64,000 nt of DNA, taken from assembly GCF_031157375.1 (NCBI RefSeq), contig NZ_JAVIFV010000004.1, forward strand, positions 434,001 through 498,000, read 5' to 3'. This document shows positions 13,270 through 43,572 of the stretch, one piece after another. The position numbers and the translations under genes were made by a program. The notes under the pieces were generated by a model. The model was not told the origin of the DNA, did no database searches, and saw only the letters and a program-made list of their open reading frames with translations. This stretch comes from Sphingosinicella sp. LHD-64. Lineage in GTDB: Bacteria > Pseudomonadota > Alphaproteobacteria > Sphingomonadales > Sphingomonadaceae. The number at the start of each line of letters is the position of its first letter. The stretch's first letter is position 1.

Positions 13270-13741
13270 TGGCCAACACAATGGAATTTTCCTCGCCTGC
13301 ATTGGCCTGATTTGCTCGTGCTCATCTAATTCGACAGTGGAGGATCATTTACTAAATCAAACTGTAAGTAACACCGCAGAAATAGAGGAATATTCAAATA
13401 CATTCGTTGAATATCCTGGGATTTGGAGCTCATGCCGAAATGGAGCCACCGAGGTTTCTGACGTCCGTGGAACAGCAGTAGTATCAATTGACGGCATCAG
13501 AGGATTTACGCCCCTTAATCAGAATAGCAGGCAATACTCTAACATAGATTTTGGTGATAGTCGACGTCGAGTCTACGAATTTCTACTTCAGAGAGATGCG
13601 AGCTCTTCGGTAGAATTGGATATAGTATTTGACGGATGGATCCTGACTCCAGATACATGTCAAGATGTTGGTCGCAGAAGCTACTTTGTTAGGCGCATTG
13701 ATCAATTGAGATTAAAGGCAGATGGAGGCCATAATGGTTAA
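13262..13741 (+). CDS. Small AT-rich protein of unknown function, possible lipoprotein or immunity partner
   Basis: 159 residues with no family I recognise. The N-terminus is hydrophobic with a Cys-containing segment GLICSCSS that could be a lipobox, though it lacks basic residues before the hydrophobic core, so export is uncertain. The rest is mostly polar beta-type sequence. Base composition is strikingly low (23 G+C in the 60 bases 13321-13380) compared with the surrounding island. It overlaps the Sel1 gene upstream and the RTX gene downstream. It shares its odd composition with the first 380 residues of the RTX protein, so the two probably arrived together; a cognate chaperone or immunity protein for that head domain is a guess from this linkage. 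Confidence 0.6.
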   Translation: MTDGQHNGIFLACIGLICSCSSNSTVEDHLLNQTVSNTAEIEEYSNTFVEYPGIWSSCRNGATEVSDVRGTAVVSIDGIRGFTPLNQNSRQYSNIDFGDSRRRVYEFLLQRDASSSVELDIVFDGWILTPDTCQDVGRRSYFVRRIDQLRLKADGGHNG

Positions 13742-27421: not shown

Positions 27422-27958
27422 ATGAATGCGACCACCACACCGCTTGCGGCGGGAGACTCAGGCCGTAGCGGCGGCATCACCGTCAGCCATCTGCTCGGCG
27501 AGATCACCTGGCTGCTCACCCAGTCGCCCTTGCACAAGGCGCTGCAGATCGGCGACCTCGAATGGCTGGTCATGCCCGCGCTGATCCATCGGCAGTTCTA
27601 CATCTTCCGCGATGGCGACAGGCCGATCGGCCTGGCACTTTGGGCCAGATGTAACCGTGAGGCCGAGGCCAAGCTCGATCGCGGCATGATCGAGCCGGAG
27701 AACCGGCTCACGCCCGAGGAATGGGTGTCGGGCGAGACGGTATGGCTGGTCGATCTCGTCGCGCCGTTCGCCGATGCGGCCAATAAGCATCGCGAGATCA
27801 TGATGGCGGACCTCATCTCCGGGCCTCTCAAAAACCAGGCGTTCAAGTTTCACCAAACCGACCCGCAGACCAGCAAGCGCACGGTCAGGACCGTCGACGC
27901 CGATGCCGGCGAGAAGCTGCGCGAGGCGATCGAAACCGCTGCCAGCAAGCTGAACTGA
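27422..27958 (+). CDS. RTX toxin-activating lysine acyltransferase, HlyC family
   Basis: 178 residues, normal length. GEITWLLTQSPLHKALQI carries the catalytic His38 equivalent (SPLH motif), and WLVDLVAPF supplies the conserved Asp111. The family moves a fatty acyl group from acyl-ACP onto internal lysines of an RTX protoxin in the cytoplasm. The gene begins 11 bp after the giant RTX gene, unlike hlyCABD where it is first. Its presence argues that the RTX protein is membrane-active rather than only adhesive. Confidence 0.9.
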   Translation: MNATTTPLAAGDSGRSGGITVSHLLGEITWLLTQSPLHKALQIGDLEWLVMPALIHRQFYIFRDGDRPIGLALWARCNREAEAKLDRGMIEPENRLTPEEWVSGETVWLVDLVAPFADAANKHREIMMADLISGPLKNQAFKFHQTDPQTSKRTVRTVDADAGEKLREAIETAASKLN

Positions 27959-28128: not shown

Positions 28129-28143
28129 CTGGTGACCCCTACG
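28129..28143. repeat. attR-like 15-bp direct repeat overlapping tRNA-Glu 3' end
   Basis: CTGGTGACCCCTACG, identical to 2693-2707. Fourteen of its bases are the last bases of the tRNA gene (CCA, discriminator, acceptor strand and start of the T stem). Confidence 0.85.
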
Positions 28144-28205
28144 GGACTCGAACCCGTGTTTTCGCCGTGAGAGGGCGACGTCCTAGACCGCTAGACGAAG
28201 GGGCC
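28130..28205 (-). tRNA. tRNA-Glu (anticodon CTC)
   Basis: 76 nt with encoded CCA. Acceptor GGCCCCT pairs with AGGGGTC (one G-U). D arm GTCTAGCGGTCTAGGAC; anticodon stem-loop with loop CTCTCAC, anticodon CTC; T arm CGGGTTCGAGTCCCG. Closely resembles bacterial tRNA-Glu. Its 3' end serves as the island attachment site and remains intact. Confidence 0.95.
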
Positions 28206-28808: not shown

Positions 28809-29570
28809 GTGCAGCTCGCCCCGTTCCGGATCGAGAGCGACGCGCGGACCCATGAAGGCCGCGTGCGCGATCACAATGAGGACAGCTTCTACGCGCAGGA
28901 GCCCAAGGGCCTGTGGGCAGTCGCCGACGGCATGGGCGGTCACGAGGGCGGCGAATGGGCCTCGGCCAAGATCGTCGAAAAGCTCGGCGACGTCGATCTG
29001 CCGCACGGATTCGATCCCGCCTGCGAGGCGATCGAGGCGGCGCTCCAGAAGGCCAATCGCGCCATCCTGGTCGAGGCGCGCCAGCGCCGGCGGCAGATGG
29101 GATCGACCGTCGTCTCGCTGCTCGTGCAGGACGGCCGCTATGCCGTGCTCTGGGTGGGCGACAGCCGCGCCTATGTGCTGCGCGACGGCGAGCTGAAGCA
29201 ATTGAGCCGCGACCATACCCAGGTCCAGGAGATGGTGGATCGGGGCATCATGCGTCCCGAAGAGGCAGTCGGCCACCCGATGGGGCATATCCTGTCGCGT
29301 GCCGTCGGCGTGCGCGACGAGATGGACGTCGACAAGGTGACCGGCGACGTCGTCCCCGGCGACGTCTTCCTGCTGTGCAGCGACGGTCTGCACGGCTATG
29401 TCGACGAAGCGGACATCACGCGGCTGCTCGCCCGCGGTTCGCCCGACCGGGCAACCGAAGAGCTGGTGGCGCTTACGCTCGCCAACGGCGCGCCGGACAA
29501 TGTCACGGTCGTCGCGATCTGGGCCAGCGAGCCCACCCTCCTCTCCATTCCAGGTTCGGTGAACTCATGA
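28809..29570 (+). CDS. PP2C-family Ser/Thr phosphatase (PppA/Stp1-like)
   Basis: 253 residues, a complete soluble PPM domain. Metal-binding motifs are in order: RVRDHNEDS, LWAVADGMGGHEGG, STVVSLLV, WVGDSRAYVLRDG, the segment SRDHTQVQEMVDRG, LLCSDGLHGYV and GAPDNVTVV. It should remove phosphate from Thr/Ser on kinase targets. GTG 28809 is preceded by AAGGGGGA. It overlaps the kinase start by ATGA, so phosphatase and kinase are co-translated, as in PppA-PpkA modules of type VI secretion. Here it presumably opposes the neighbouring kinase. Confidence 0.93.
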   Translation: MQLAPFRIESDARTHEGRVRDHNEDSFYAQEPKGLWAVADGMGGHEGGEWASAKIVEKLGDVDLPHGFDPACEAIEAALQKANRAILVEARQRRRQMGSTVVSLLVQDGRYAVLWVGDSRAYVLRDGELKQLSRDHTQVQEMVDRGIMRPEEAVGHPMGHILSRAVGVRDEMDVDKVTGDVVPGDVFLLCSDGLHGYVDEADITRLLARGSPDRATEELVALTLANGAPDNVTVVAIWASEPTLLSIPGSVNS

Positions 29571-31663
29571 GCGACGACAAGGACAAGCAGCCGCCCGAAA
29601 ATGGCGAGGAGCGGACGGTGTTCATGCCGTCGGGCGGCACCACCCCGCCCGCCCAGCCGGCGGCGCCGGTCGAGCCCGCGGCCGAACCTGCCGCCGCGCC
29701 GGCATCGGAGGCGCCGGCCGAGCCGGTCGCCGCACCGCCCGCTCCGGCACCGGCGCCGAGCACCAGCGCCGGGGTCAGCCCGACCAATTTCGCGCCGCGC
29801 GAGGACACCAAGGCGATCCAAGTCGGCGACGTCCTCAACCACATCTTCGAGGTCAAGCGCTTTCTCGCCCGCGGCGGCATGGGCGAGGTGTTCGAAGGCG
29901 TCAACGTCAACACCGACGAGCGCGTCGCGATCAAGGTGATGCTGCCGCAGATGGCGGCGGACGAGAAGGTCGTCGCGATGTTCCGGAAGGAAGCGCGGAC
30001 TCTCACCAAGCTGCAGCACGAGGCGCTGGTCTCCTATCGCGTGCTGGCGCAGGAGCCGCAATTGGGTGTGCTCTACATCGTCACCGAGTTCATCGAGGGC
30101 ACCGAGCTGGCCGACGTGCTCGGCAAGGTCGAACGCTCCCCGGACGAGCTGGCGGGGCTGCTCCGGCGGCTCGCCTCGGGCCTCGGTGCCGCCCATAAGC
30201 TGGGCGCGATCCACCGTGACATGTCGCCGGACAACGTGCTGCTGCCGGGCGGGGACGTGCACCAGGCGAAGATCATCGATTTCGGCATCGCCAAGGATCT
30301 CGACGCCAGTTCGGCGACGATCGTCGGCGACGGCTTTGCCGGCAAATTGAACTATGTCGCGCCGGAGCAGCTCGGCGACTATGGCCGCGAGATCGGACCG
30401 TGGACCGACGTCTACAGCCTCGCACTCGTCATCCTTGCGGTCGCGCAGGGTAAGAACGTCAACATGTCGGGGTCGCTGGTCGACGCGATCGACAAGCGTC
30501 GCAAGGGGCCGGACCTCGCTGCAGTGCCGGCGAGCCTCAAGCCGGTGATCGAGGCGATGCTGCGGCCCGATCCCAACGAGCGGCTGCGCTCGATGGAGGA
30601 CGTGGTCGCGATGCTGAGCGGGGGCGCGGGCGCGACGCCCGCTCCGCCACCGCCTCCGCCGACGGGCCCGACGACCGCGGCCGGCACGTCGACGCCGAGT
30701 GGCGGCGGCGCGTCCAAGGGTCTCCTCGTCGGCGGTCTCCTGGCCGCGGCGCTCGCTGCCGGAGCAGCCGCCTGGTATCTGATGCCGCCCCCCGGGCCCG
30801 GGCCGGTTCCGGAACCGCCGAAGAACGAGGTCGTCGTCGACCCGGGCGATCCGGTTGCCACCGCCCGCAGCGCAGTCAATTCGGTGTTGCCGTCGGTTTC
30901 CTGCACCTGGCTCGACATCGCCAACGTCGATCGCCAGGGGGAAGGCGTACGCGTGGCGATGCGCGGCGTTGCCGGCGATGGAGGTGCCGCCCAGCGGGAG
31001 ATCAACCAGGCGCTCACGGCCGCCGGCGTTCAGAACGCCACGGTCGACTTCGGCGATGTCGCGCCGATCACCCAAGCCGGCTGCGCCGCGCTCGACACCT
31101 ATCGCCAGGTGCGCGCGTCGGACAATTACAAGCTCTCGGCGACCCAGCCGCGCTACGAAATGGTCATGCAGCCGCCCGGCACGGCCTATGCGGGTGAGGA
31201 AGCCGCGACCGCGGTTCTCAACTTCAACTTCGGCGATCCGACGCTCGATTTCGCGATCCTGGGCATCGAGCCCTCGGGGATCATCCAGACGATCGTTCCC
31301 AACCGCGGCAATTTCGAGGCCGCCTTGGCCTCGTCGCAGGGCGGCCGGCCGATCGCCAACGAGGGCAATGACCGCTATCGGCTCAGCATCGATCTCGATC
31401 ATCTGGGCTGGTCGGGCATCATCCTGGTGACCGGCCGGGCGCCGTTCGATGTGCCGATCGTGGCACCGCCCGTGGGGTCGCGCGGTCCGTCCTGGCAGCA
31501 GCAATTTCTCTCCGCCGCGGCCGAGCGCGGCTGGCGAGTGGAGATGGTCTGGTTCGAATCGGTCAACCGCAATTCCGGCGACGGGCCGCCGCCCGGGTCG
31601 CCCGCTCCGCCAACGGGCGGCGATACCCCGCCTGCGGACGGCGGCAAGCCGCCGGTCGGCTAA
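29567..31663 (+). CDS. Transmembrane Ser/Thr protein kinase (PpkA-like) with periplasmic domain
   Basis: 698 residues. An N-terminal Pro/Ala-rich tail with EERTVFMPSGG carries a Thr that could be the phospho-site read by an FHA domain (inference). The Hanks-type kinase domain (about 93-354) has the Gly loop ARGGMGEVF, Lys in VAIKVML, catalytic HRDMSPDN and DFGIAK. The usual Lys of HRDxKPxN is Ser, as in some other bacterial kinases. A Pro-rich linker, one transmembrane helix (about 381-406) and an unrecognised periplasmic domain of about 290 residues follow. Start overlaps the phosphatase stop. Topology suggests an external cue controls cytoplasmic phosphorylation. Confidence 0.92.
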   Translation: MSDDKDKQPPENGEERTVFMPSGGTTPPAQPAAPVEPAAEPAAAPASEAPAEPVAAPPAPAPAPSTSAGVSPTNFAPREDTKAIQVGDVLNHIFEVKRFLARGGMGEVFEGVNVNTDERVAIKVMLPQMAADEKVVAMFRKEARTLTKLQHEALVSYRVLAQEPQLGVLYIVTEFIEGTELADVLGKVERSPDELAGLLRRLASGLGAAHKLGAIHRDMSPDNVLLPGGDVHQAKIIDFGIAKDLDASSATIVGDGFAGKLNYVAPEQLGDYGREIGPWTDVYSLALVILAVAQGKNVNMSGSLVDAIDKRRKGPDLAAVPASLKPVIEAMLRPDPNERLRSMEDVVAMLSGGAGATPAPPPPPPTGPTTAAGTSTPSGGGASKGLLVGGLLAAALAAGAAAWYLMPPPGPGPVPEPPKNEVVVDPGDPVATARSAVNSVLPSVSCTWLDIANVDRQGEGVRVAMRGVAGDGGAAQREINQALTAAGVQNATVDFGDVAPITQAGCAALDTYRQVRASDNYKLSATQPRYEMVMQPPGTAYAGEEAATAVLNFNFGDPTLDFAILGIEPSGIIQTIVPNRGNFEAALASSQGGRPIANEGNDRYRLSIDLDHLGWSGIILVTGRAPFDVPIVAPPVGSRGPSWQQQFLSAAAERGWRVEMVWFESVNRNSGDGPPPGSPAPPTGGDTPPADGGKPPVG

Positions 31664-31735
31664 GACGTCGCATCGTCGTCGTCCCGAGGGTGAGTAGGTT
31701 GCCGGCCCCGAAAGGCTTGCAATGACGAACCGACG

Positions 31736-32962
31736 TCAGCGCTCGCGGTCGCCGAATCCTTCGCGGAGCTGGCGCTCGTAGGCCTTGCGGAACTCCTTCG
31801 AGAACACCTCCATGAAGGCCTCGTCGGACTCGTTCTTCACCTTCACATATTCGCGCTCATAGTTACGCCACAGTGCCGCGTCCTGCAGCGACGGCATGAT
31901 CCGCGCCAGCACCCCGGCCTTGGTCGCTCGCCTCCGGATCGAGCCCGGCGAGAAACGGTCGAGCGTGGCACGCAGCGCCCCGGGGATCGCCGAAAGCGTC
32001 GCGATCTGGTGCGACTGGAGATCCAGAAACGCATCCTCGACCGCCTTGTCGGCCTCGAGGAAGCCTTTCTGTGCGGGATTGAGCAGCTGGGCCAGCGCCT
32101 GCTCGGGCGAACGGGCGAACTTGATCGGGTTGTTGCCGTCGAGCTGGAGCTGGGTCGCTTCGGCGCCCATCTGCGCCTTGGCGCGGGCGCGCGCCTCGAC
32201 CATGACGATGAGGCCGGACACCAGCCGCCTCAGCAGCGAACCGGCCTTGCGGACGAGCTCGGGCGAGCGCTCGATCTCGCGCTCGCTGAGCGATGCGGCA
32301 GCGACGAAGGTCTCGATCAGCCCGTCTGCGGTGCGGGTGTCCGTGGCCGCGGCCGGCGCGGCATCCTCGACGCCGAAGCCGCCGCGTGCCCAGTCGACCT
32401 TGTTGATGTCGGTCAGCGAATCCCACATCACCGTAACGTTTTCGGGCACCCGGTCCTCGCCCTGCTCGGCCGGTGATGCGTCGACCGCGGCCGCCTCGGG
32501 CGGCGCAGGCTCTACCGGCGGGGCAGGGGGGGGCGCTGCCGGCTCGGGAATCGGCGCAGGCTCGGGAGCGGGAGCCGGCGGGGCGGGCGGCGCGGTCACC
32601 TCGGCGGCCGGCTCCGCGACAGGTTCCGCGGGTGCCGCGGTCGTCGACGCTTCGAATGAGGCCAGGACTTCGTAATGGCCGATCTTGAAGAGGTCTCCTG
32701 CCGCGATCTCGTGCTCCTTCGACATCCGCTCGGACGCGCCGTTCAGGAAGGTGCCATTGGTGCTGATATCCTTGAAGATATAGAGGGGGCCTTCGCGCTG
32801 GATCTCGGCGTGGCGCGACGAAATGACGTTGTTCGCGTCGGGCAGGTTCCAGTCGCAATTCTTGGACCGGCCGATGACGACGCTGTCGCGCTCGACCGCG
32901 AATCGCGGGCTCGCCACATCGCCGGCCGCCTCGGCATTGCGGATGGTCAGGATCAGGATCAT
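31736..32962 (-). CDS. FHA-domain protein, TagH-like (type VI secretion-associated)
   Basis: 408 residues from ATG 32962. The N-terminal FHA domain is intact: VVIGRSKNCDW, ISSRHAEI and DISTNGTFLN keep the Arg, Ser, His and Asn used to bind phosphothreonine. A long Ala/Pro-rich linker follows (about 110-190), then an alpha-helical C-terminal domain with SPEQALAQLLNP, EDAFLDLQSHQIATLSAI and FRKAYERQL, matching the C-terminal domain of T6SS TagH/Fha proteins. It is convergent with the kinase gene and divergent from the OmpA gene. It is the likely reader of the kinase phosphorylation state. No T6SS structural gene is in the window. Confidence 0.85.
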   Translation of the reverse strand: MILILTIRNAEAAGDVASPRFAVERDSVVIGRSKNCDWNLPDANNVISSRHAEIQREGPLYIFKDISTNGTFLNGASERMSKEHEIAAGDLFKIGHYEVLASFEASTTAAPAEPVAEPAAEVTAPPAPPAPAPEPAPIPEPAAPPPAPPVEPAPPEAAAVDASPAEQGEDRVPENVTVMWDSLTDINKVDWARGGFGVEDAAPAAATDTRTADGLIETFVAAASLSEREIERSPELVRKAGSLLRRLVSGLIVMVEARARAKAQMGAEATQLQLDGNNPIKFARSPEQALAQLLNPAQKGFLEADKAVEDAFLDLQSHQIATLSAIPGALRATLDRFSPGSIRRRATKAGVLARIMPSLQDAALWRNYEREYVKVKNESDEAFMEVFSKEFRKAYERQLREGFGDRER

Positions 32963-33236
32963 GCGCCCGTCGAAGCCCCTCGCAGATTTTGCATGCGCCC
33001 TTATGCGGGCCAATGCGGCGGCAAGGGAAGGCCGGAAATCGCCTCCGACCGCAGCCGCGGACCGAAACTAGCAAGGTCGTTCTGGTCAAACAATGTTCAG
33101 GTACGGGGGACTATTGGCCGCGGCACGGGGAGCAAGGTCCGGTTGCCTTGCTGGCCGGGGGGACTTGGAGTAGTCTCCTTATTCAACAATCCGAAGTGCA
33201 CCCATGGGGGGGTGTTGGCTTCTTCCAGGAGGCAAT

Positions 33237-33896
33237 ATGCGCAAGATCGGTTTGACCCTTTTGCTCTGCGGCATCGCGGCGGTTCCCGTCGCGGCGCAGG
33301 ACACCGCAACGCCGGACGATTTCGTCTGCGCGTTCACCAACGAATGCACCGAAGCCCAGGCGGACGACAATTCGCAGGACGGCCCGGCGATGAACGCGCA
33401 GGGCGGACGGATCGGCGAGGCCGACCGGAGCTTCTCGCTCTCGACCTCGGGCAATGCCAACACGACCCGCCGGCAGCAGCCGCGCGCGACCCCGCGCAAC
33501 ACGGCACGCAATACCGCCCGCAACACGGCCCGGACGCCGCGCGTGGTCGCGACCCAGCCCGGCCGGGTCAATCTGAGCCTCAGCTTCAATGTCGGCTCGG
33601 CGACCCTGACCTCGGCCGCCCAGGCGCAGCTGCGGTCCTTCGCCCAGGCGCTGCAGCGTCCGCAGCTTTCGGCGATGCGCGTCGCGATCGAGGGCCACAC
33701 CGACAGCTCGGGCAGCCGCGCCAGCAACGTCTCGCTGTCGCAGCGCCGCGCCCAGGCGGCGGCCGACTATCTCGTCGCCCAGGGCGTTGCCCGCAACCGG
33801 CTGCAGGTGCAGGGCTACGGCTTCGATCGCCCGCTGCAGGGCCGTCGTGCCTCCGACCCGGCCAATCGCCGCGTCGAGGCGGTGAGGATTTCATAA
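33237..33896 (+). CDS. OmpA-family outer-membrane/peptidoglycan-binding protein
   Basis: 219 residues. ATG 33237 has a perfect AGGAGG upstream. A signal peptide ends near VPVAAQD; a short Cys-containing segment and a low-complexity linker with three TARN repeats follow. The C-terminal OmpA domain has LSFNVGSATL, GHTDSSGS and LSQRRAQAAADYL, keeping the Asp and Arg that bind diaminopimelate. There is no beta-barrel domain, so it is a periplasmic or secreted peptidoglycan anchor. Placed next to the kinase/FHA genes, it could recall the OmpA-type anchors of T6SS clusters, but it lacks their transmembrane IcmH part. Confidence 0.88.
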   Translation: MRKIGLTLLLCGIAAVPVAAQDTATPDDFVCAFTNECTEAQADDNSQDGPAMNAQGGRIGEADRSFSLSTSGNANTTRRQQPRATPRNTARNTARNTARTPRVVATQPGRVNLSLSFNVGSATLTSAAQAQLRSFAQALQRPQLSAMRVAIEGHTDSSGSRASNVSLSQRRAQAAADYLVAQGVARNRLQVQGYGFDRPLQGRRASDPANRRVEAVRIS

Positions 33897-33989
33897 GGCG
33901 AGCGATTTTGCTTCGTTGCAGAAGACGGACGGCCGCGCATCACCGCATGCGTGGTCGTTTCGTCGTCGCGATGCTCTCGGGTGGTCGCT

Positions 33990-34940
33990 CTAGGACGGAT
34001 TTGGAACGCCGAGCTCCTCGGCAGCCTGGCGCAGCCGGCCTTGCGTCCTCGCGTCACCCTGGAAGGCGGCGAGGCTGCGGCGCAGTGCGTCAGTCGCGCC
34101 CGGGCGGTCGTTGAGCACCATTCTCGAGCGCATCAGGCGGACCCAGCCCTGCTCGTCGCGGGGATTCTGCTGCAGGCGCGCGGCGAGCCGGTCCACCATC
34201 CCCTTCACCATCTCGTCCTGCTGGCCCGGGGGAATGGCGCGCGCGGCGTCCATCTGCTCCCGGGTCGGTCCGGGGATCGCGGCCGTTGCGGTCGAAGCCG
34301 GCGGAGTGCGCGCTGGCGGCAACCGGCCCTCGATGTCGATGTTGTTGGTCTGGGCGATGGTCGTCACCGCCTGGCGCACCTGGGCTTCCCAGGGCGCGTC
34401 GGCCGGCGCCTCGCGCAGCAAGGCGACGAGGTCGTTGACCGCGCCCTGATGGTCGCCGCGCACGTCCTTCATCGTCGCGAGATAGTAGCGCGCCTGGGCG
34501 TTGTCGGCCTGCAGCTCGAGCGTCCGGCGGAACAGGCGCTCCGCCTCCGGCGGGGGATTGCGGCCGCCCTGCAGGAGCAGGGTCTCGGCGAGATAGGCGG
34601 TATAGTCGGCATTCTGCGGCGCCAGCTCCATCGCCCGGCGGAAGGCCTGCTCGGCGCCCGGGAAGTTGCCGGTATCGCGATAGGAGAGGCCGAGCAGGAA
34701 CCAGCCCTCGTGATTGTCCGGATCCTGGCGCAGCCGCTCGCGCAGGCCCGCAATCATGTCCTCGACGCTGCCGGGCGCCTGGGCGGCGGCTGCCATGTTG
34801 TTGCTCGTGGCCACCGCCTCATTCGTCCCGCCGGAGCGGAAGAGGGCGATGGCGATGGCCGCAACCGCGAGGATCGCGGCGGCGGCGAGGGCGATGGTGG
34901 CGGGCGAAATCCGCCGCCCGGAAGGAGTGTTGCTGGCCAT
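33990..34940 (-). CDS. TPR protein resembling the periplasmic part of CcmI/CycH (cytochrome c maturation)
   Basis: 316 residues. One N-terminal transmembrane helix (about 13-34), then tetratricopeptide repeats: WFLLGLSYRDTGNFPGAEQA, FRRAMELAPQNADYTAYLAE, and further copies to about 190. A C-terminal segment GMVDRLAARLQQNPRDEQGW begins another TPR pair. The pattern matches the C-terminal, TPR-bearing part of CcmI, which presents apocytochrome c for haem attachment. The decaheme cytochrome gene 3.5 kb away makes such a role attractive, but generic TPR function cannot be excluded. Confidence 0.75.
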   Translation of the reverse strand: MASNTPSGRRISPATIALAAAAILAVAAIAIALFRSGGTNEAVATSNNMAAAAQAPGSVEDMIAGLRERLRQDPDNHEGWFLLGLSYRDTGNFPGAEQAFRRAMELAPQNADYTAYLAETLLLQGGRNPPPEAERLFRRTLELQADNAQARYYLATMKDVRGDHQGAVNDLVALLREAPADAPWEAQVRQAVTTIAQTNNIDIEGRLPPARTPPASTATAAIPGPTREQMDAARAIPPGQQDEMVKGMVDRLAARLQQNPRDEQGWVRLMRSRMVLNDRPGATDALRRSLAAFQGDARTQGRLRQAAEELGVPNPS

Positions 34941-35086
34941 TGGCGCGGATCATTACGGCAAAAAAGCCAACGTCAAGTCTGGCGTCGCTCACAGAAGCTG
35001 CTAGACTGAAACAGGCTGTCTGTATTGCGTCTCGGGGTTCAGTTTCCGCATTGCGGCTGGCCGAGCTTGGGGGAGTGGACATCTAA

Positions 35087-37525
35087 GTGGCGTCGGCTTT
35101 CAAGATCGCCATCGTGGGATCGGGACCCGCAGGCATGAGTGCTGCGGGCCGTGCGGCGCAGCTTGGCCTGTCCCATATCCTCCTCGAAAAGACCGATCAC
35201 CTTTCAGATACGATCTACAAGTATCAGAAAGGCAAGCATGTTATGGCGACGCCGAGCCAGCTGGTGCTGCGCTCGGACATGAATTTCGATGCCGGCAAGC
35301 GCGAGAAGATCCTCGGCGTTTGGGACGAGGAGGTCGCCGCCCAGAAGGTCAACGTGAAATACAATGCCGAGGTGAAGAAGATCACTGGGCAGAAGGGCGA
35401 CTTCACCCTTGCGCTGACCAATGGCGAGGAGATCAAGGCCGAGCATGTCATCCTCGGCGTCGGTACCCAGGGCAACCCCAACAAGATGCGCTGCGAGGGC
35501 GGCGATCTGCCGCACATCCAGTACACGCTCGACGACCCCGGCGAATATGTCGACGAGCATATCACCGTCATCGGTTCCGGCGACGCCGGCATCGAGAATG
35601 CCGTCGGCCTCGCCGCGGACCCCGAGCAGAACAACACCGTCACCATCCTCAACCGCTCGGCCGAGTTCGCCCGCGCCAAGCAGGGCAATATCGACCTGAT
35701 CCTCGAGGCCGGGCGGACGGGGCGCGTCAACGTGATGTGCGAGACGACGCCGCTCCGGATCACGCCGGGCTGGCTCCATCTCGAGACCCGCGACGGCGAG
35801 CAGAAGATCAAGTGCGACCGCATTATCGCGCGCATGGGCACCTCGCCGCCGCGCAAGTTCGTCGAAGATTGCGGCATTTCCTTCACCAGCGACGACAAGG
35901 ACGCCTATCCGGCACTGTCGCCACAGTTCGAGACGAGCGTCGCCGGCATCTACGTGATCGGGGCGCTGGCGGGTTATCCGCTGATCAAGCACTGCATGAA
36001 CCAGGGCTATGACGTCATCGAGTTCATCAACGGCAACACCGACCTGAAGCCCGCCGACGAACCCATTCTCGAGGAGAAGTTCGCGGCGCTGCCCGGCGCG
36101 CGGAGCGTCACCGAGTGGCTCGCCTTCCTGCGCCGCCGGGTCAGCATCCTCAACGATCTGTCGATGCTGCAGATGCGCGAATTCCTGCTCGATTCGGAAC
36201 CGCGCGCCTATCGCGCCGGCGACATCGTGTTCCAGCGGAACGAGCCGGGCGCCTCGCTGTTCGCGATCGCCGATGGCTCGCTGCTGGTCGAGATCGACCC
36301 GAATGATCCTTCCAGGACCGTGCCGATCGCGCGCGGTTCGATCGTCGGCGAGGTCGGCCTGATTTCAGGCCGCAAGCGCAGCGCCACGGTGCGTACCGCC
36401 GAGGGCGCGATCGTCGTCGAGATTCCGCGCACCGCCTCCCTCAAGCTGATCGCGACCAATACCGCCGCCAAGAAGGAGATCACCCGCATCTCGACCGAGC
36501 GGCAGCTTCTCCAGCTCTTTCCCGGCACCACGCCCGACGACCTCAAGGAGGTGCTGGAAACCGCCGAGATCAAGGAAATCCGCGCCGGCCAGACGATCAT
36601 CAACGAAGGCGACGAGGGCTACGACATCTTCGTCATCCGCCAGGGCTCGATGGTCGTCGAGAAGGCGATCGGCGGCAAGCCGGTCTTCCTCTCCTATCTC
36701 CCTGCCGGCTCCTATGTCGGCGAGATGGCACTGATCGACGGCGGCCGGCGCACCGCCACGGTGCGCGCGGCGATCAAGTCTGAGGTGATCAAGCTCGACG
36801 GCGATGCCTTCAAGCGGCTCCTGCAGGGTCGCCCGGCCCTGCTCGCCAAGTTCAAGGACGACATGGCGGCGCGCCAGCAGACGACCGGCTTCATCGAGGC
36901 GAAGAAGCAGAGCTTCAGCGGCGCGGTCGACATGTATTCGCAGGTCGCCGGCTTCTTGGTCGAGAACGGCATCGGCGAGGCGACCGACGTGCTGCTGATC
37001 GACGAGAAGCTCTGCATCGGCTGCGACAATTGCGAGCGCGCCTGCGCGGACAGTCACGAGGGCCTCTCCCGCCTCGACCGCGAGGCGGGGCGGACCTACG
37101 CCCATCTCCATGTGCCGACCTCGTGCCGCCACTGCGAGCACCCGCACTGCATGGCCGATTGCCCGCCCAATGCGCTCAATCGCGGGCCGGACGGCGAGGT
37201 CTATATCAACGACACCTGCATCGGCTGCGGCAATTGCCAACGCAACTGCCCCTATGGCGTGATCCGGATGGCGAAGCCGCCGCCCAAGAAGCCGAGCCTG
37301 CTCTCCTGGCTGTTCTTCGGCAAGGGGCCGGGCCCGGGCGAGCCGGACAAGAAATGGACCGAAGGCAAGGTCAGTTCGGAAACGCCAAAAAAAGCGATCA
37401 AATGTGATATGTGCTCAGGTATAGAGGGCGGGCCGGCATGCGTGCGCGCCTGCCCGACGGGTGCGGCGATCCGCGTGTCGCCGGAAGAGTTCCTGACCGT
37501 GGCAAGGATGGGACAGGGGGGCTGA
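35087..37525 (+). CDS. FAD/NAD(P) oxidoreductase fused to two cyclic-nucleotide-binding domains and a polyferredoxin
   Basis: 812 residues from GTG 35087 after GGGGGAG. Part 1 (1-325): Rossmann FAD site VGSGPAGMSAAGRAA and a second nucleotide site IGSGDAGIEN, thioredoxin-reductase-like but with no CxxC redox pair between them. Parts 2 and 3: cNMP domains at about 365-452 and 488-578, each with the phosphate-binding cassette (GEVGLISGRKRSATV; GEMALIDGGRRTATV). Part 4 (641-795): ferredoxin with CIGCDNCERAC, CRHCEHPHCMADCP, CIGCGNCQRNCP and CDMC...CVRACP, enough Cys for about four [4Fe-4S] clusters as in DmsB/HycB subunits. Likely carries electrons from NAD(P)H via FAD to FeS under cyclic-nucleotide control. 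The membrane cytochrome-like gene follows after 4 bp. Confidence 0.88.
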   Translation: MASAFKIAIVGSGPAGMSAAGRAAQLGLSHILLEKTDHLSDTIYKYQKGKHVMATPSQLVLRSDMNFDAGKREKILGVWDEEVAAQKVNVKYNAEVKKITGQKGDFTLALTNGEEIKAEHVILGVGTQGNPNKMRCEGGDLPHIQYTLDDPGEYVDEHITVIGSGDAGIENAVGLAADPEQNNTVTILNRSAEFARAKQGNIDLILEAGRTGRVNVMCETTPLRITPGWLHLETRDGEQKIKCDRIIARMGTSPPRKFVEDCGISFTSDDKDAYPALSPQFETSVAGIYVIGALAGYPLIKHCMNQGYDVIEFINGNTDLKPADEPILEEKFAALPGARSVTEWLAFLRRRVSILNDLSMLQMREFLLDSEPRAYRAGDIVFQRNEPGASLFAIADGSLLVEIDPNDPSRTVPIARGSIVGEVGLISGRKRSATVRTAEGAIVVEIPRTASLKLIATNTAAKKEITRISTERQLLQLFPGTTPDDLKEVLETAEIKEIRAGQTIINEGDEGYDIFVIRQGSMVVEKAIGGKPVFLSYLPAGSYVGEMALIDGGRRTATVRAAIKSEVIKLDGDAFKRLLQGRPALLAKFKDDMAARQQTTGFIEAKKQSFSGAVDMYSQVAGFLVENGIGEATDVLLIDEKLCIGCDNCERACADSHEGLSRLDREAGRTYAHLHVPTSCRHCEHPHCMADCPPNALNRGPDGEVYINDTCIGCGNCQRNCPYGVIRMAKPPPKKPSLLSWLFFGKGPGPGEPDKKWTEGKVSSETPKKAIKCDMCSGIEGGPACVRACPTGAAIRVSPEEFLTVARMGQGG

Positions 37526-37529
37526 CAGG

Positions 37530-38405
37530 GTGGCAAGCAGGGGGCTGGACAGGGCGGAATATGGGGACGCGGCGGCTCACGAGAGCTTCCTGAGATACCG
37601 GCGCTTTCGCTGGTTCAAGATCGGCGCGGTCCTCTCGCTCCTCACCGTCGTCATCTACATGCTGGTCGACGTGCAGCCGCGCCACAATGGCGGCAGCTGG
37701 CTCGGCTATACGCTGGGGACGCTCGGCGCCCTGCTGATCTTCTGGCTGTCGCTGCTCGGCATCCGCAAGCGCGCGATGACCCGCGGCCGCTGGTCGCTGA
37801 AGGCCTGGACCTCGGCCCACGTCTATCTCGGCCTCGCGCTCGTCATCATTGGCACGCTTCACACCGGCTTTCAGCTCGGATGGAATGTCCACACACTGGC
37901 CTATGTGCTTATGATGATGGTGATTCTGTCCGGCATCTACGGCATCACTGTTTATGCCGTCCTGCCCCAAGGCCTGTCCGACAGCCGCTCCGAGATGACC
38001 GGGCCGCAGATGATCGAGGCCGTCAACAGCCTCGACAAGCAGATCCAGATTTCGGCCCAGCCCCTGTCCGACGAGGACAGCGCCGTCGTGCTCGGCTCGT
38101 TGGGCGAGGATCCGTTCGGCGGGGGCGCCTGGCGGCGCCTGTCGGGCAGCTATCCCAAATGCGGCAACCGCGCGGCGCTCGCCTACATGCGCCAGCGGCT
38201 CGACGAGACGTCGGGCAAGCAGCAGATCGCGGTCGAGCAGATCGTCCAGCTCCTGGAGAAGAAGGCGGCCGCGCTGACGCGCCTTCGGGGCTATATCCAG
38301 CGGCGGGCATTGCTCGAGGTGTGGCTCTTCTTCCACATCCCGCTCACCTTCGTGCTGATCGCCGCGCTCGTCGCGCACATCATCAGCGTCTTCTTCTACT
38401 GGTAG
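37530..38405 (+). CDS. Membrane protein resembling a b-type cytochrome / electron-transfer membrane subunit
   Basis: 291 residues with about five transmembrane helices: KIGAVLSLLTVVIYMLV, LGTLGALLIFWLSLLGI, the His-bearing HVYLGLALVIIGTLHTGF, the His-bearing helix TLAYVLMMMVILSGIYGITV, and a C-terminal FFHIPLTFVLIAALVAHIIS. His pairs in helices 3 and 5 could ligate haem b, though no named family is certain. A soluble loop of about 110 residues separates helices 4 and 5. GTG 37530 sits 4 bp after the FeS fusion gene and the stop is 13 bp before the decaheme gene. It could pass electrons from the cytoplasmic FeS protein to the periplasmic haems. Confidence 0.7.
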   Translation: MASRGLDRAEYGDAAAHESFLRYRRFRWFKIGAVLSLLTVVIYMLVDVQPRHNGGSWLGYTLGTLGALLIFWLSLLGIRKRAMTRGRWSLKAWTSAHVYLGLALVIIGTLHTGFQLGWNVHTLAYVLMMMVILSGIYGITVYAVLPQGLSDSRSEMTGPQMIEAVNSLDKQIQISAQPLSDEDSAVVLGSLGEDPFGGGAWRRLSGSYPKCGNRAALAYMRQRLDETSGKQQIAVEQIVQLLEKKAAALTRLRGYIQRRALLEVWLFFHIPLTFVLIAALVAHIISVFFYW

Positions 38406-38418
38406 GGGGTAGTAGAGA

Positions 38419-40287
38419 ATGGCGTTCCTCCTGCGGAATATCAGCCTCAGCGCTGACGGGCGCGAGATCGTCCGCACCTCGCGGATCCGCGACGACCTCT
38501 TGAAGGTCGGCCGCGATCCCGATTGCGACATCCGGCTCAACGACCTTGCCGTCGCGCTTCACCACGCGACGCTGGAGCAGATCTCGTCGAGCACGATCGG
38601 CGTGTCCGCCGAAGCCGGCCTGACCGTCGAGATCGACGGCTCCACCACCCAGTTCGGCCAGATCGATCTCACCACCGGGGGCACGATCAAGGTCGGCCCC
38701 TTCCTACTGCGCATCCTTGCGGTGGAGATGGGATCGGACGACGTCGCCATCGACGTCGCCCGTGCCGACACCGAGGAGGCGGAGGAGAAGTTCGATACCC
38801 GCCGCTTCGCGCTCTCGACCGTGCTGCCGGGCAAGCGCGCGATCGCCTGGACCCTGACCTTGGCCGTGGTCGGCCTGTTCCTCGTCTGGCCGATCGCCTT
38901 CTTCTATTCGAGCGCGCGCGAGCCGACCACGCTCGCTCAGGGCTTCCACGCCGACGAGACGTGGAGCAGCGGGCCGCTGTCGCGCGCCCACCATGCGCTC
39001 GAGCAGAATTGCAACGCCTGTCACGTCCGGCCTTTCGAGCCGGTGCGCGACGAATCGTGCAAAGCCTGCCACACCCAGGTCCACGACCATGCCGACCTCG
39101 CCCGGCTCGCCCAGGCGACGCCGAATCCGGGCGGCTGGGCGCGTTTCCAGCTCGCCGTCGCCGGCGCCTTCGGCCAGGATCCGGGCCGCTGCGTCGATTG
39201 CCACACCGAGCATGAGGGCGCGCAGGAGATGGTGCCGACGCCGCAGCAATTCTGCTCGGATTGCCACGCGGACCTGCGCACGCGTCTGCCCGATACGCCG
39301 CTCGGCGACGCCGCGAACTTCGAGACCGCGCACCCCGAATTCCAGCCGACCGTGCTGATCCGCTGGGACGACCAGACACCGCGGATGCAGCGTGTGACGC
39401 TCGGCATCCAGAACGCGCGCGAGCAGAGCAACCTCAAGTTCCCGCACGAACTCCATCTCCAGCCCAATGGCGGTGTGGCGCAGATGGGCCGCCGGCTTGG
39501 TCAGCAATACGGCTTCGGCCAGAATCTGGAATGCTCCGACTGCCACGTGCCGACGCCGGACGGGACGCGCTTCCAGCCGGTCGACATGGAAGGCGATTGC
39601 GGCATGTGCCACAGCCTTGCCTTCGAGCAGATCGGCGGCACGGTGCGCACGCTCCGCCATGGCGATCCGCGCCAGGTGGTGGCGGACATCCTCTCCTTCT
39701 ACCGCACGGCGCCGCGCGAGAGGGTCGGCCTCGGCGCCGATCGGGCGCGGCCGGGCGACGTCAACCAGATCCGCGCCGCCGTCCAGCAGGCGCGGGCGCG
39801 GGCGGCGACCGGGGCGCGGGCCGATCAGGCGGTGCGACAGGTCTTCTCACCGGGCGGCGCCTGCTTCGAATGCCACGAGGTGACGGCGCCGCCGGCCGGC
39901 TCGCTAGCGTTCGGCGTGCAGCCGGTGGCCTTCCCGACCCGCTACATGCTGCACGGCTGGTTCGATCACCGGCCGCACCAGTTCACCCAGCGGCCGGGCC
40001 AGGCTCGCCAGGAGGGCACGCAGGCCTGCCTCAGCTGCCACACGGCGAACGCGTCGGAGAATGCGAACGACCTGCTGCTGCCGGATCTGGCCAGCTGCCG
40101 GACCTGCCACGGCGGCGAGACGACCCGGCTGCCGGTGGCGTCGAACTGCGCCATGTGCCACGATTATCATATGGACGAAGGCGTTCCGGCGATGCTGCTC
40201 CGCCAGCAGGTGCGGGGGCGCCGCTGGGAGACGACGGTGATCCGGGTCAACGATCCGCAGCGGGCCCCATTGCCGCGCAGCCGGTAA
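38419..40287 (+). CDS. FHA-transmembrane-decaheme cytochrome c fusion
   Basis: 622 residues. Residues 1-110 form an FHA fold (KVGRDPDCDIRL near 30-40), but the phospho-binding face is degenerate: VALHHA replaces VSRHHA and the NG motif is missing. A transmembrane helix at about 142-165 places the rest in the periplasm. Ten CXXCH haem sites follow (CNACH at 198 to CAMCH at 577), with extra His residues as distal ligands, in two groups of six and four split by an Ala/Arg-rich spacer. Third gene of a tight operon with the FeS-fusion and b-cytochrome-like genes. Probably an electron store or conduit tied to cytoplasmic signalling. No OmcA/MtrC-type partner is visible. Confidence 0.9.
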   Translation: MAFLLRNISLSADGREIVRTSRIRDDLLKVGRDPDCDIRLNDLAVALHHATLEQISSSTIGVSAEAGLTVEIDGSTTQFGQIDLTTGGTIKVGPFLLRILAVEMGSDDVAIDVARADTEEAEEKFDTRRFALSTVLPGKRAIAWTLTLAVVGLFLVWPIAFFYSSAREPTTLAQGFHADETWSSGPLSRAHHALEQNCNACHVRPFEPVRDESCKACHTQVHDHADLARLAQATPNPGGWARFQLAVAGAFGQDPGRCVDCHTEHEGAQEMVPTPQQFCSDCHADLRTRLPDTPLGDAANFETAHPEFQPTVLIRWDDQTPRMQRVTLGIQNAREQSNLKFPHELHLQPNGGVAQMGRRLGQQYGFGQNLECSDCHVPTPDGTRFQPVDMEGDCGMCHSLAFEQIGGTVRTLRHGDPRQVVADILSFYRTAPRERVGLGADRARPGDVNQIRAAVQQARARAATGARADQAVRQVFSPGGACFECHEVTAPPAGSLAFGVQPVAFPTRYMLHGWFDHRPHQFTQRPGQARQEGTQACLSCHTANASENANDLLLPDLASCRTCHGGETTRLPVASNCAMCHDYHMDEGVPAMLLRQQVRGRRWETTVIRVNDPQRAPLPRSR

Positions 40288-40443
40288 CGGCCCGGAAAGG
40301 TGGGCGCGTGCATCAGCGGGCCCGAAGGGGAGGGGAGTGCGGGGCCATGACCGTCATCCGGACGGGATCGGTGATCCGCCGTGCGTGCGGACCGGTGCGG
40401 CCGTCGCATTGCCCCCGTCCCGCGGCTGGGGCACGATGACCGG

Positions 40444-41301
40444 ATGCTGATCGCGCAGATCACCGACCTGCACCTCGGATTCGATCCGGACAATCTGGAC
40501 GAGTTCAATCGCCAGCGCTTCGATTCCGCGCTACGGGTGCTGACCGGTCTGCGGCCGCGGCCGGATCTGCTGCTCGTCACCGGCGACATTGCCGACGACG
40601 GCAATGACGCCCAGTCCTATCTCCGCTACAGGGAGGGCATCGCGCAATTGCCCTTCCCGGTCTTCTCGGCGATGGGCAATCATGACGAGCGCGAGACCTT
40701 CCTCGCCGCCTTTCCCGACCATCCCCATGCCGGCGACGGCTTCATCCAGTATGCGATCGAGGATTACGACCTGCGCATCCTCGTCCTCGACACGCTGCAG
40801 ATCGGGCGGCACGGCGGCGCCTATTGCGAGACGCGAGCGGCCTGGCTGGAGGCGCGGCTCGACGAAGACCCCGAGCGGCCGACATTGATCGCGCTCCACC
40901 ATCCTCCATTCGACACCGGCATTCCCTGGCTGACCGAGGATCCGGAGGCGGGCTGGGCGGTGCGGCTGCGCAACGCGATCGGACCGCGGACCAACATCGT
41001 CGGCCTGATCGGCGGGCATGTCCATCGCGCGATCACCACCACCTGGGCGGGCAAGCCTCTGACGGTGTGCCCCTCGACTGCGCCGCAGGTCGCGCTCGAT
41101 CTGATGCCGATCGACCCCGAGCAGCCCGACGAGCGGCCGATGATCATCGCCGACCATCCCTATTACGCGCTCCACTGGTGGAACGGCCGGAACCTCGTCA
41201 GCCATATCGACACGGCCGAGGACCATGAGGTGCTGGCCCGCTACACCCCGGCGCTCCAGCCGCTGGTTCGGCTCGTCACCGATGAGCAGAAGCGGGGATA
41301 G
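40444..41301 (+). CDS. Calcineurin-like phosphoesterase, CpdA-type (3',5'-cAMP phosphodiesterase family)
   Basis: 285 residues from ATG 40444. All class III phosphodiesterase motifs are present: ITDLHLGF (DxH), VTGDIADDG, GNHDE, LHHPP and GGHVHR (GHxH). The family hydrolyses cyclic nucleotides or related phosphoesters with two metal ions. It lies 156 bp after the FHA-cytochrome gene on the same strand. Since the operon upstream encodes two cNMP-binding domains, tuning their ligand is a reasonable inference, not a demonstrated one. Confidence 0.85.
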   Translation: MLIAQITDLHLGFDPDNLDEFNRQRFDSALRVLTGLRPRPDLLLVTGDIADDGNDAQSYLRYREGIAQLPFPVFSAMGNHDERETFLAAFPDHPHAGDGFIQYAIEDYDLRILVLDTLQIGRHGGAYCETRAAWLEARLDEDPERPTLIALHHPPFDTGIPWLTEDPEAGWAVRLRNAIGPRTNIVGLIGGHVHRAITTTWAGKPLTVCPSTAPQVALDLMPIDPEQPDERPMIIADHPYYALHWWNGRNLVSHIDTAEDHEVLARYTPALQPLVRLVTDEQKRG

Positions 41302-42137: not shown

Positions 42138-42204
42138 GCGGCTCCGCCGCGTCAACCGATTGACACCCGCTCGGCCCTGCGTCATGGCCTGCCGGTCCGT
42201 AAGG

Positions 42205-42403
42205 ACGCGCGGGAGAGAGTGGCGGGGAACCGCTGCCGCCGAAGGAGCAACCGCCCCGGAATCTCTCAGGCAGAAGGACCGCGCGCTCGAGGACGCTCTG
42301 GAAAGCGGATGGTGGCGAAAGTGCCGCGCATCCCACCGAAGGGGTAAGTCGGCTCGCCGCAGGGGGCCGGTGAAAGCTCTCAGGTCCCGGTGACAGAGGG
42401 GGC
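42205..42403 (+). promoter_or_regulatory. Tandem glycine riboswitch (gcvT element)
   Basis: The first aptamer has GGGAGAGAG, CCGCCGAAGGAGCAA, CTCTCAGGCAGAAGGACCG. The second has GGACGCTCTGGAAAG, CCACCGAAGGGGTAA, GCTCTCAGGTCCCGGTGACAGAGGGG. Two glycine aptamers in series upstream of gcvT are the established arrangement; glycine binding usually switches the cleavage genes on. The gcvT start is 57 bp downstream. This accounts for the 320-bp gap before gcvT. Confidence 0.95.
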
Positions 42404-42459: not shown

Positions 42460-43572
42460 ATGAGCGAGCCCGAAAAGACCCTCCCCCTGGACCAGTGGCA
42501 CCGCGCCCGCGGCGCGCGCATGGTCGAATTCGCCGGCTATGCCATGCCGATCCAATATGAAGGGATCATGGCCGAGCACAAATGGACGCGCGAGCAAGCC
42601 GGCCTGTTCGACGTCAGCCATATGGGCCAGGTGATCGTCGCCGGCGCCGAGGCGGAGAAGGGGCTGGAGGCGCTGCTTCCCGCCGACCTCGCCATCCTGA
42701 AAGATTCGAAGCCCAAATATTCGCTGCTGCTGACCGAGGATGGCGGCATCATCGACGACCTGATGGTGACGCGGCGCGGCGACCATTTCTACCTGGTGGT
42801 CAACGGCGCGACCAAGAACGGCGACATCGCCCACATGGAATCGCGGCTGCCGCGTGGCGCGGTGCTCGACCATATGAAGGAGCAGGCGCTGCTCGCGCTG
42901 CAGGGGCCGAAGGCGGTGGATGTGCTGGCGCGGCTCGTGCCCGGGGTCGAGGACCTGACGTTCATGACTGCCGGGGCGTTCACGATCGCCGGGGTTCCGG
43001 CGTGGATCAGCCGCTCCGGCTATACCGGCGAGGACGGCTATGAGATTTCGGTGCCGGCGCGCGCAGTTGAGGACATCGCGACCCTGATCGCCGACCAGCC
43101 CGAGGTGAAGCCGATCGGTCTCGGCGCGCGCGATTCGCTGCGGCTGGAGGCGGGACTGCCGCTCTACGGCCATGACCTCGATTTCTCGACGACGCCGGTC
43201 GAGGCCGACCTTGTCTTCGCACTGTCGAAGCGGCGGCGCGAGGAAGGCGGCTTTCCGGGCTGGCACCGGATCGCGCGCGAGCTCGCTGACGGCCCGATCC
43301 GCAAGCGAGTCGGCCTCGCGGTCGAGGGGCGCCAGCCGGTGCGCGAGGGCGCCATGGTTGTCGACGGCGAGGGCAACGAGGTCGGCAAGGTGACGAGCGG
43401 CGGCTTCTCGCCCTCGACCGAGGCGCCGATCGCCATGGCCTATGTGCCCGCCGCGGCGGCGGCCCCGGGCGCAAGCGTCCTCCTGTCGCAGCGCGGCAAA
43501 TTGTTTAACGCGAAGGTCGTGCCGATGCCCTTCGTCCCCCATCGCTATCATCGGAAGGGAGCGCCGAAATGA
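42460..43572 (+). CDS. gcvT: Glycine cleavage system T protein (aminomethyltransferase)
   Basis: 370 residues from ATG 42460 with GGAG upstream; an earlier in-frame start at 42409 lies next to the riboswitch and is unlikely. It transfers the methylene group of aminomethyl-lipoyl GcvH to tetrahydrofolate, releasing ammonia. Folate-binding hallmarks: [20 protein letters not shown]-like [46 protein letters not shown]. Overlaps gcvH by ATGA. Confidence 0.95.

Follow-up and report, generated by a model that had tools for sequence, protein, structure and literature searches.

In the porin-cytochrome conduits of metal-reducing bacteria, a periplasmic multihaem cytochrome, an outer-membrane protein and a large secreted multihaem cytochrome are encoded together, as excerpts of the source describe (PMC6148476). 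A kinase-FHA pathway of the type VI secretion system (T6SS), with the threonine-phosphorylation module PpkA-PppA-Fha/TagH, is set out in excerpts of another source (PMC10482370). We analysed a 64,000-nucleotide stretch of the Sphingosinicella sp. LHD-64 genome (hereafter G000; contig NZ_JAVIFV010000004.1, positions 434,001–498,000; the whole stretch is called the window), in which a three-gene redox operon lies beside a PP2C-kinase-TagH-OmpA block. On balance we think it probable that the operon supplies the inner-membrane half of an electron conduit across the cell envelope and that the block is a remnant of T6SS type. An earlier note on this DNA had joined both into one electron-transfer chain controlled by kinase and FHA signalling, and all the genes that it named were recovered at the locus by gene calling and by Pfam and NCBIfam matches. 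The G000 assembly is near-complete (3.89 Mb, 8 contigs).

The redox operon and its conserved residues

The operon spans positions 35087–40287 of the plus strand. It encodes an 812-aa FAD/NAD(P)-CNB-CNB-ferredoxin protein (35087–37525; Pfam Pyr_redox_3, 2e-30; cNMP_binding, 5.5e-32 in two stretches; Fer4) with tandem cyclic-nucleotide-binding (CNB) domains, a 291-aa b-type membrane protein of about five transmembrane (TM) segments with two HX13H pairs (37530–38405; a predicted di-haem protein, as judged from invariant His and hydropathy), and a 622-aa FHA-like-TM-decahaem cytochrome with one TM segment at about residues 146–158 and ten CxxCH motifs (38419–40287). The three genes share one direction and are separated by gaps of 4 and 13 bases, which is compatible with an operon. 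The cytochrome has its nearest named matches in two Sphingosinicella records, at 70% and 69% identity. The b-type protein had no Pfam or NCBIfam match over cut-off (PF01292, 17.6 bits versus a cut-off of 30.1), so it departs from the earlier view that every part is a known family; for the same reason it is a clean search marker, and its profile served as operon marker in the genome searches. This profile had no meaningful match among solved structures and no relative among viral contigs.

We searched 385 alphaproteobacterial genomes (class sample), 398 genomes of the phylum (phylum sample) and 60 relatives. Matches at E ≤ 0.001 were found in 52/385 genomes of the class sample, 37 of them strong (E ≤ 1.6e-65; next best 9e-18), and the 15 weaker matches (E 9e-18 to 9e-4) were kept out of the operon-positive count. 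The only one of these with a fetched locus, a weak b-type relative in G297 (L109), is without the FHA-decahaem cytochrome gene; it adjoins 13- and 21-haem open frames. The phylum sample gave 20/398 matches, 15 of them strong, five of which lie outside Alphaproteobacteria. We annotated 64 loci (the 60 stretches L073–L132, three named loci and the window). In 55/64, the three redox genes adjoin one another with unchanged order and strand, which argues that their grouping is not due to chance; the operon is a widespread conserved unit. Contig ends cut the arrangement in L004 and probably in L102. In two genomes of another class, a single fusion protein of about 1,120 residues combines the flavo-CNB-FeS (FeS, iron-sulfur) and b-type parts (L120, 3052–6423; L121, 6950–10306).

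After cut or odd members were dropped, alignments retained 50 of 61 flavoprotein, 58 of 62 b-type and 61 of 63 cytochrome gene calls. The ferredoxin part seen in the earlier note is present, and its description is corrected here to sixteen Cys, invariant in 50/50 flavoproteins, which would be enough for four [4Fe-4S] clusters. Within its first 330 residues, the flavodomain has no CxxC (0/50), so it is no thioredoxin-reductase-like disulfide enzyme. The b-type protein has five invariant His (H97, H111, H121, H269, and H283 in 58/58), and the two HX13H pairs (H97/H111 and H269/H283) lie in predicted TM segments; this would fit two bis-His haems between TM helices, i.e., a predicted di-haem b protein. 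All ten CxxCH columns of the cytochrome are kept in 61/61 rows (two sequences show nine when counted without gaps), and exactly ten further His, candidate sixth ligands, are kept in 60–61 of the 61 rows, matching the needs of ten bis-His haems. These residues imply the sequence of carriers that had been proposed for the chain, from NAD(P)H through FAD and FeS to haem b and haem c, and the fusion in L120 and L121 agrees with it; we infer the cofactors and the direction of electron flow.

A CcmI/CycH-type TPR gene (33990–34940, minus strand; TPR_CcmH_CycH, 1.9e-28) is the divergent neighbour of the operon and possibly has a role in cytochrome c maturation. Such a match lies near the operon in 24/64 loci, two of these weak (26 bits). 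Between this gene and the flavoprotein gene, at about 34960–35030 of the window, is a conserved stretch like GTCAAGTCTGGC, which occupies the same place in L122 and L124–L128 and was recognised by eye in 7/9 upstream sequences.

The output set and the proposed electron path

De novo clustering of operon neighbourhoods, combined with gene calling, identified a recurrent set of genes 3' of the operon. This output set comprises an HbpS-like protein (three PF03928 stretches), a barrel candidate of about 600–690 residues (C-terminal Tyr/Phe in 36/36 aligned sequences, retained from 39 gene calls), an LVIVD-repeat decahaem protein of about 1,100–1,500 residues with a signal-like N-terminus (ten CxxCH in 18/18 aligned sequences, retained from 38) and often a tetrahaem c554-like protein. 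In 49/64 loci the stretch contained one or more output genes, and HbpS-like, barrel and LVIVD genes were all present in 30/64. In G000, the output set, with the tetrahaem cytochrome included, is on another contig (C1, about 822.8–832.4 kb; LVIVD gene at 828165–832421), and genes for an acetolactate-synthase-like protein and an aldehyde dehydrogenase run divergently from it. Operon and output set form one run in L113 and stand side by side on the Sphingobium herbicidovorans plasmid pMSHV, where the annotation lists them as ordinary genes, separate from one another. The output set is also present on Sphingopyxis indica pMC4, a plasmid on which the flavoprotein search gave no match.

Genome-wide co-occurrence identified the output set, and not the kinase, as the operon's steady partner. 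Among the 60 relatives, 15 have the operon, 16 the LVIVD decahaem and 15 both, i.e., the LVIVD decahaem is present in 15/15 operon-positive and 1/45 operon-negative genomes; the exception is G024 (86% complete, about 420 contigs). In the class sample it was found in 29/385 genomes from 14 families, all 29 operon-positive (29/37 versus 0/348 others). The corresponding Fisher values, which take no account of relatedness, are 3e-13 (relatives) and 1e-36 (class). In L081, L094, L098, and L099, an alternative output set replaces the LVIVD set and consists of a tetrahaem protein, a pentahaem protein (about 590–640 residues) and a third protein (about 500 residues) with a C-terminal KF; no whole-profile link was found between the alternative pentahaem set and the LVIVD set.

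If the operon is the inner-membrane half of a conduit, NAD(P)H would reduce the FAD of the cytosolic flavodomain, from which electrons would pass via four [4Fe-4S] clusters to the two b haems of the membrane protein and on to the cytochrome anchored in the periplasm, with its ten bis-His c haems. This cytochrome would hand them to the output set encoded elsewhere in G000, and thus to or through the outer membrane. We infer an outer-membrane position for the output proteins, as well as gating of the chain by its CNB domains.

The chain may serve an assimilatory or protective use instead of respiration: it would reduce Fe(III), haem or oxidants outside the cell and so help to supply iron or to balance redox state. 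This is compatible with the conduit reading and differs from it in purpose; we regard it as a serious possibility that falls short of being probable. The family of the HbpS-like protein (PF03928) is described as haem-degrading or haem-binding, and the hosts are mostly aerobes, both of which would suit such a use. On the other side, no siderophore, TonB or Fur context turned up, in neighbourhoods that were not systematically searched for one, and FNR- or CRP-type sites were not enriched beyond shuffles upstream of the operon.

Since two tandem CNB domains lie between the flavin and FeS domains, the chain would likely be gated by cyclic nucleotides. A metallophosphoesterase gene (40444–41301, plus strand, alternative GTG start at 40381; Metallophos, 1e-17) directly follows the operon. 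It had been called a CpdA-like phosphodiesterase; the metallophosphoesterase assignment holds, while SpdA (2',3'-cyclic type; 131 bits, cut-off 400) scores higher than CpdA (PRK11148; 93 bits, cut-off 225) and both are below cut-off, so that SpdA/CpdA-like is the more fitting label. The gene is directly 3' of the operon and on the same strand in 20/64 loci, nearly all from sphingomonads. It is a sphingomonad accessory of the operon and a putative cyclic-nucleotide phosphodiesterase; this placement supports a cyclic-nucleotide link in sphingomonads and not elsewhere. Together with the conserved CNB cassettes, its position makes this link, and cyclic-nucleotide gating of the electron chain, plausible.

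A stricter form of this idea is a second-messenger-gated conduit in ordinary, mostly aerobic Alphaproteobacteria, in which NAD(P)H electrons would reach or cross the outer membrane through interchangeable outer sets only when cyclic nucleotide is bound to the tandem CNB domains; we put it forward tentatively. We would also allow some chance, well short of even, that the CNB domains are structural relics and the chain runs without such gating. The cassette Ser/Thr, scored at what we take to be the CRP S83 position, is often Gly in the first domain (Gly 21/50, S/T 28/50; second domain, S/T 38/50), and 2',3'-cyclic compounds may be the preferred substrates of the phosphoesterase, as relics would allow. 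Against relics, the Gly-Glu and Arg of the phosphate cassettes are invariant in both domains (50/50), and G000 has three nucleotidyl-cyclase matches over cut-off.

It seems unlikely that the same chain operates in reverse, taking low-potential electrons from donors in the periplasm or outside the cell, e.g., Fe(II) or sulfur compounds, and passing them inward via decahaems, b haems and FeS clusters to make NAD(P)H. Sequence does not fix the direction, and flavin-NAD(P) and bis-His haem chains should in principle be reversible. Genes for NADP-glutamate dehydrogenase, acetolactate-synthase-like protein (in L134 with a PRK08322 match over cut-off) and aldehyde dehydrogenase are found repeatedly close to the operon or to the output set (L074, L113, L115, L132, and L134), which would also fit inward flow. 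However, the hosts recognised by name, i.e., Sphingobium, Sphingopyxis, Sphingosinicella, and Sphingomonas, are ordinary heterotrophs.

The kinase block and type VI secretion

The block beside the operon begins with a PppA-like PP2C phosphatase (28809–29570, plus strand; PP2C_2, 3.4e-15; homologues in T6SS clusters L169 and L170). Its gene is overlapped by 4 bases by that of a PpkA-like Ser/Thr kinase with a TM segment and a C-terminal domain (29567–31663, plus strand; Pkinase, 1.8e-35; homologues in T6SS clusters L169, L170, and L174). A TagH-type FHA protein follows on the minus strand (31736–32962, start re-called; TIGR03354, 266 bits versus a cut-off of 120.25; T6SS_FHA_C, 165 bits, 2.2e-48), and then an OmpA-domain protein (33237–33896, plus strand; OmpA, 2.6e-23), whose L170 homologue lies between TagH/VgrG and TssA. 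In the window, the OmpA gene is directly followed by the CcmI gene and the operon.

Kinase, PP2C or TagH genes occur near the operon in only 7/64 loci; six are from a single clade within one genus, and the other, L006, matches in part. The six genomes with the block beside the operon (G000, G001, G005, G009, G013, and G025) group as a single clade (support 0.998) when flavoproteins are compared in a tree, so the adjacency represents one inherited event. Within the genus, G010 and G014 have homologues of the PP2C, kinase, TagH and OmpA genes inside complete T6SS clusters, amid TssM, TssL/DotU, VgrG, TssA, TssB, TssC, Hcp, and TssE; in G003, a T6SS region contains a related block. On contig C60 of G010, the T6SS cluster extends to TssG and to the gene of a ClpB-type ATPase, which ends at 25121. 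Four small genes come next, then the CcmI gene (27295) and the redox operon (28166), so that the T6SS end is about 2 kb before CcmI. The VipB sheath gene (PF05943) was present in G010, G014, and G003 and was not found in the six operon-linked genomes; other T6SS genes were searched for in the window and its flanks, and no T6SS structural gene was found in the window. T6SS kinases group apart from the kinases of these six in the kinase tree. The simplest reading is that the block is the control block left after a T6SS locus beside the operon lost its machine in one clade; this loss would be deduced from gene content, and a single gain of the kinase block may instead account for the pattern. In a comparison of G000 with G025 (one pair), dN/dS is 0.17 for PP2C, 0.23 for the kinase, 0.17 for TagH, and 0.29 for OmpA, and such purifying selection suggests that the block still does something.

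A joint system, in which an orphan block was adopted after T6SS loss and kinase, phosphatase and FHA proteins switch the chain by Thr phosphorylation, would give it such a function, and the FHA motif in the window's TagH protein is an ordinary one. The block lies beside the operon in each of the six T6SS-less genomes with strong TagH, and strong TagH matches are commoner in operon-positive (7/15) than in operon-negative relatives (1/45, G014; 8/60 in total, 14/60 at any strength). However, 8/15 operon-positive relatives are without a strong TagH match, G005 keeps from the block only TagH and OmpA in the stretches read, and in G010 and G014 this block is part of T6SS clusters. The cytochrome itself also argues against a phosphothreonine switch. 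Its N-terminal domain has profile matches to GarA and OdhI and is just above the Pfam FHA cut-off; scored against what we take to be the phosphothreonine-reader motif (Gly-Arg, Ser-Arg/Ser and His residues), it retains Gly-Arg in 61/61 and His49 in 44/61 sequences, with Ser46 in 4/61 and Arg47 in 0/61. The domain thus appears degenerate, without the usual phosphothreonine contacts, and a phosphothreonine switch in the cytochrome is unlikely. A joint kinase-redox system therefore seems to us very improbable, and as the principal reading we reject it on the 7/64 linkage, the single clade and the T6SS homology. The control by kinase and FHA proposed in the earlier note thus finds no support here. 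Across genomes the operon mostly occurs without the kinase module, and for the kinase part the outcome is the accidental neighbours that the note had itself allowed for. A defence system was rejected as well, since PADLOC matches are to general kinase, CNB and OmpA-like domains and no defence context was seen.

Upstream of the block, the window has an island-like stretch (2872–28205) ending at a tRNA-Glu gene (28130–28205, minus strand). It contains an integrase fragment, a MobA/MobL relaxase-helicase, a C39-type ABC transporter, HlyD, a 4,562-residue open frame (13722–27410) and an HlyC-type acyltransferase (27422–27958); G+C drops to 0.57–0.62 across most of the giant frame. In G009, small phage- or island-like genes lie upstream of the PP2C gene (L183, 1–13926), on the same side as the island of the window. 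Elsewhere in the window, a glycine riboswitch aptamer (42200–42291) lies upstream of gcvT (42460–43572).

Several observations weigh against the reading of the operon as a conduit half and of the block as a T6SS remnant. The flavoprotein gene is located past the LVIVD gene in L097 and L103, and a tetrahaem gene takes its place in L092 and L098. Eight of the 37 operon-positive genomes of the class sample have no LVIVD-decahaem match: G119, G164, G438, and G179 carry another tetra/pentahaem set, G111 and G317 have only a tetrahaem gene nearby, and G084 and G283 are cut at contig edges. The barrel candidate has no family match (a weak match to the porin model DESULF_POR1 reached 16 bits versus a cut-off of 250), its profile matched no solved structure up to E 10, and its amphipathicity is weak in a simple test (median z 1.1 and 1.0, compared with −0.4 for HbpS, −1.1 for LVIVD, 0.4–0.8 for other families, and 0.7–2.2 for three known barrels). 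The LVIVD profile gave one weak cytochrome match among solved structures (0.35). To our knowledge, the hosts are not known as extracellular respirers. As to the block, G000 has a second, weak TagH-like match, and the genome-wide T6SS search covered one family only.

If the conduit reading is right, many sphingomonads and other Alphaproteobacteria without known extracellular respiration would carry an NAD(P)H-fed exit for cytosolic electrons that has a cyclic-nucleotide input and comprises at least twenty c haems. Unnamed families, i.e., the b-type protein, the barrel candidate and the LVIVD decahaem, would also gain a testable meaning. The locus is at the same time a warning against reading the kinase block as the conduit's regulator.

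Comparison with known systems

Among open-licence papers we found none that joins these parts, and within that literature the conduit is apparently undescribed. The block resembles the PpkA-PppA-Fha/TagH module in having a kinase, a PP2C phosphatase and an FHA protein with T6SS_FHA_C, plus an OmpA protein; it differs in that G000 has no sheath gene and the window no T6SS structural gene. Two likenesses concern the flavo-CNB-FeS protein. Its flavodomain has the fold of the YpdA/Bdr flavin reductases (YpdA, 126 bits versus a cut-off of 340; solved Bdr chain 7a7b), but is below the YpdA cut-off and fused to CNB and FeS domains. Its ferredoxin part shares sixteen Cys in four motifs with CISM-type FeS subunits (FdhB/HycB/DmsB-like), with formate hydrogenlyase subunit 2 as best solved relative, but is fused here to a flavodomain and two CNB domains, and the operon has no molybdoenzyme partner.

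CbcL-type proteins of Geobacter join a di-haem b part to a periplasmic multihaem c part, an arrangement also predicted here. CbcL probably draws electrons from menaquinol. Here, however, two proteins provide the b part and the c part, and a cytosolic flavo-CNB-FeS protein precedes them.

The chain as a whole would work like a porin-cytochrome conduit with a predicted barrel, although no match over cut-off to the Mtr and Ext families was found in the searches made. MtrB/PioB (PF11854) was found in 0/22 operon-positive genomes, a search without positive control, as 14 control genomes gave only one match, below cut-off. The FHA-decahaem cytochrome reaches 17.9 bits against DmsE/MtrA-type decahaem (TIGR03508, cut-off 192), and the LVIVD protein 64 of 800 bits required for ExtM; ExtN gave 20 of 200 bits, and no ExtM/N/O match was over cut-off. 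CymA, ImcH, and CbcL are quinol oxidases that feed such conduits. Like the Mtr and Geobacter Omc/Ext conduits (PMC6148476), the one proposed here would combine a single inner part with different, interchangeable outer sets, and genes for a periplasmic multihaem cytochrome, a predicted outer-membrane protein and a large secreted multihaem protein occur together. It differs from them in its input, which would be an NAD(P)H-dependent flavo-CNB-FeS protein instead of a quinol oxidase.

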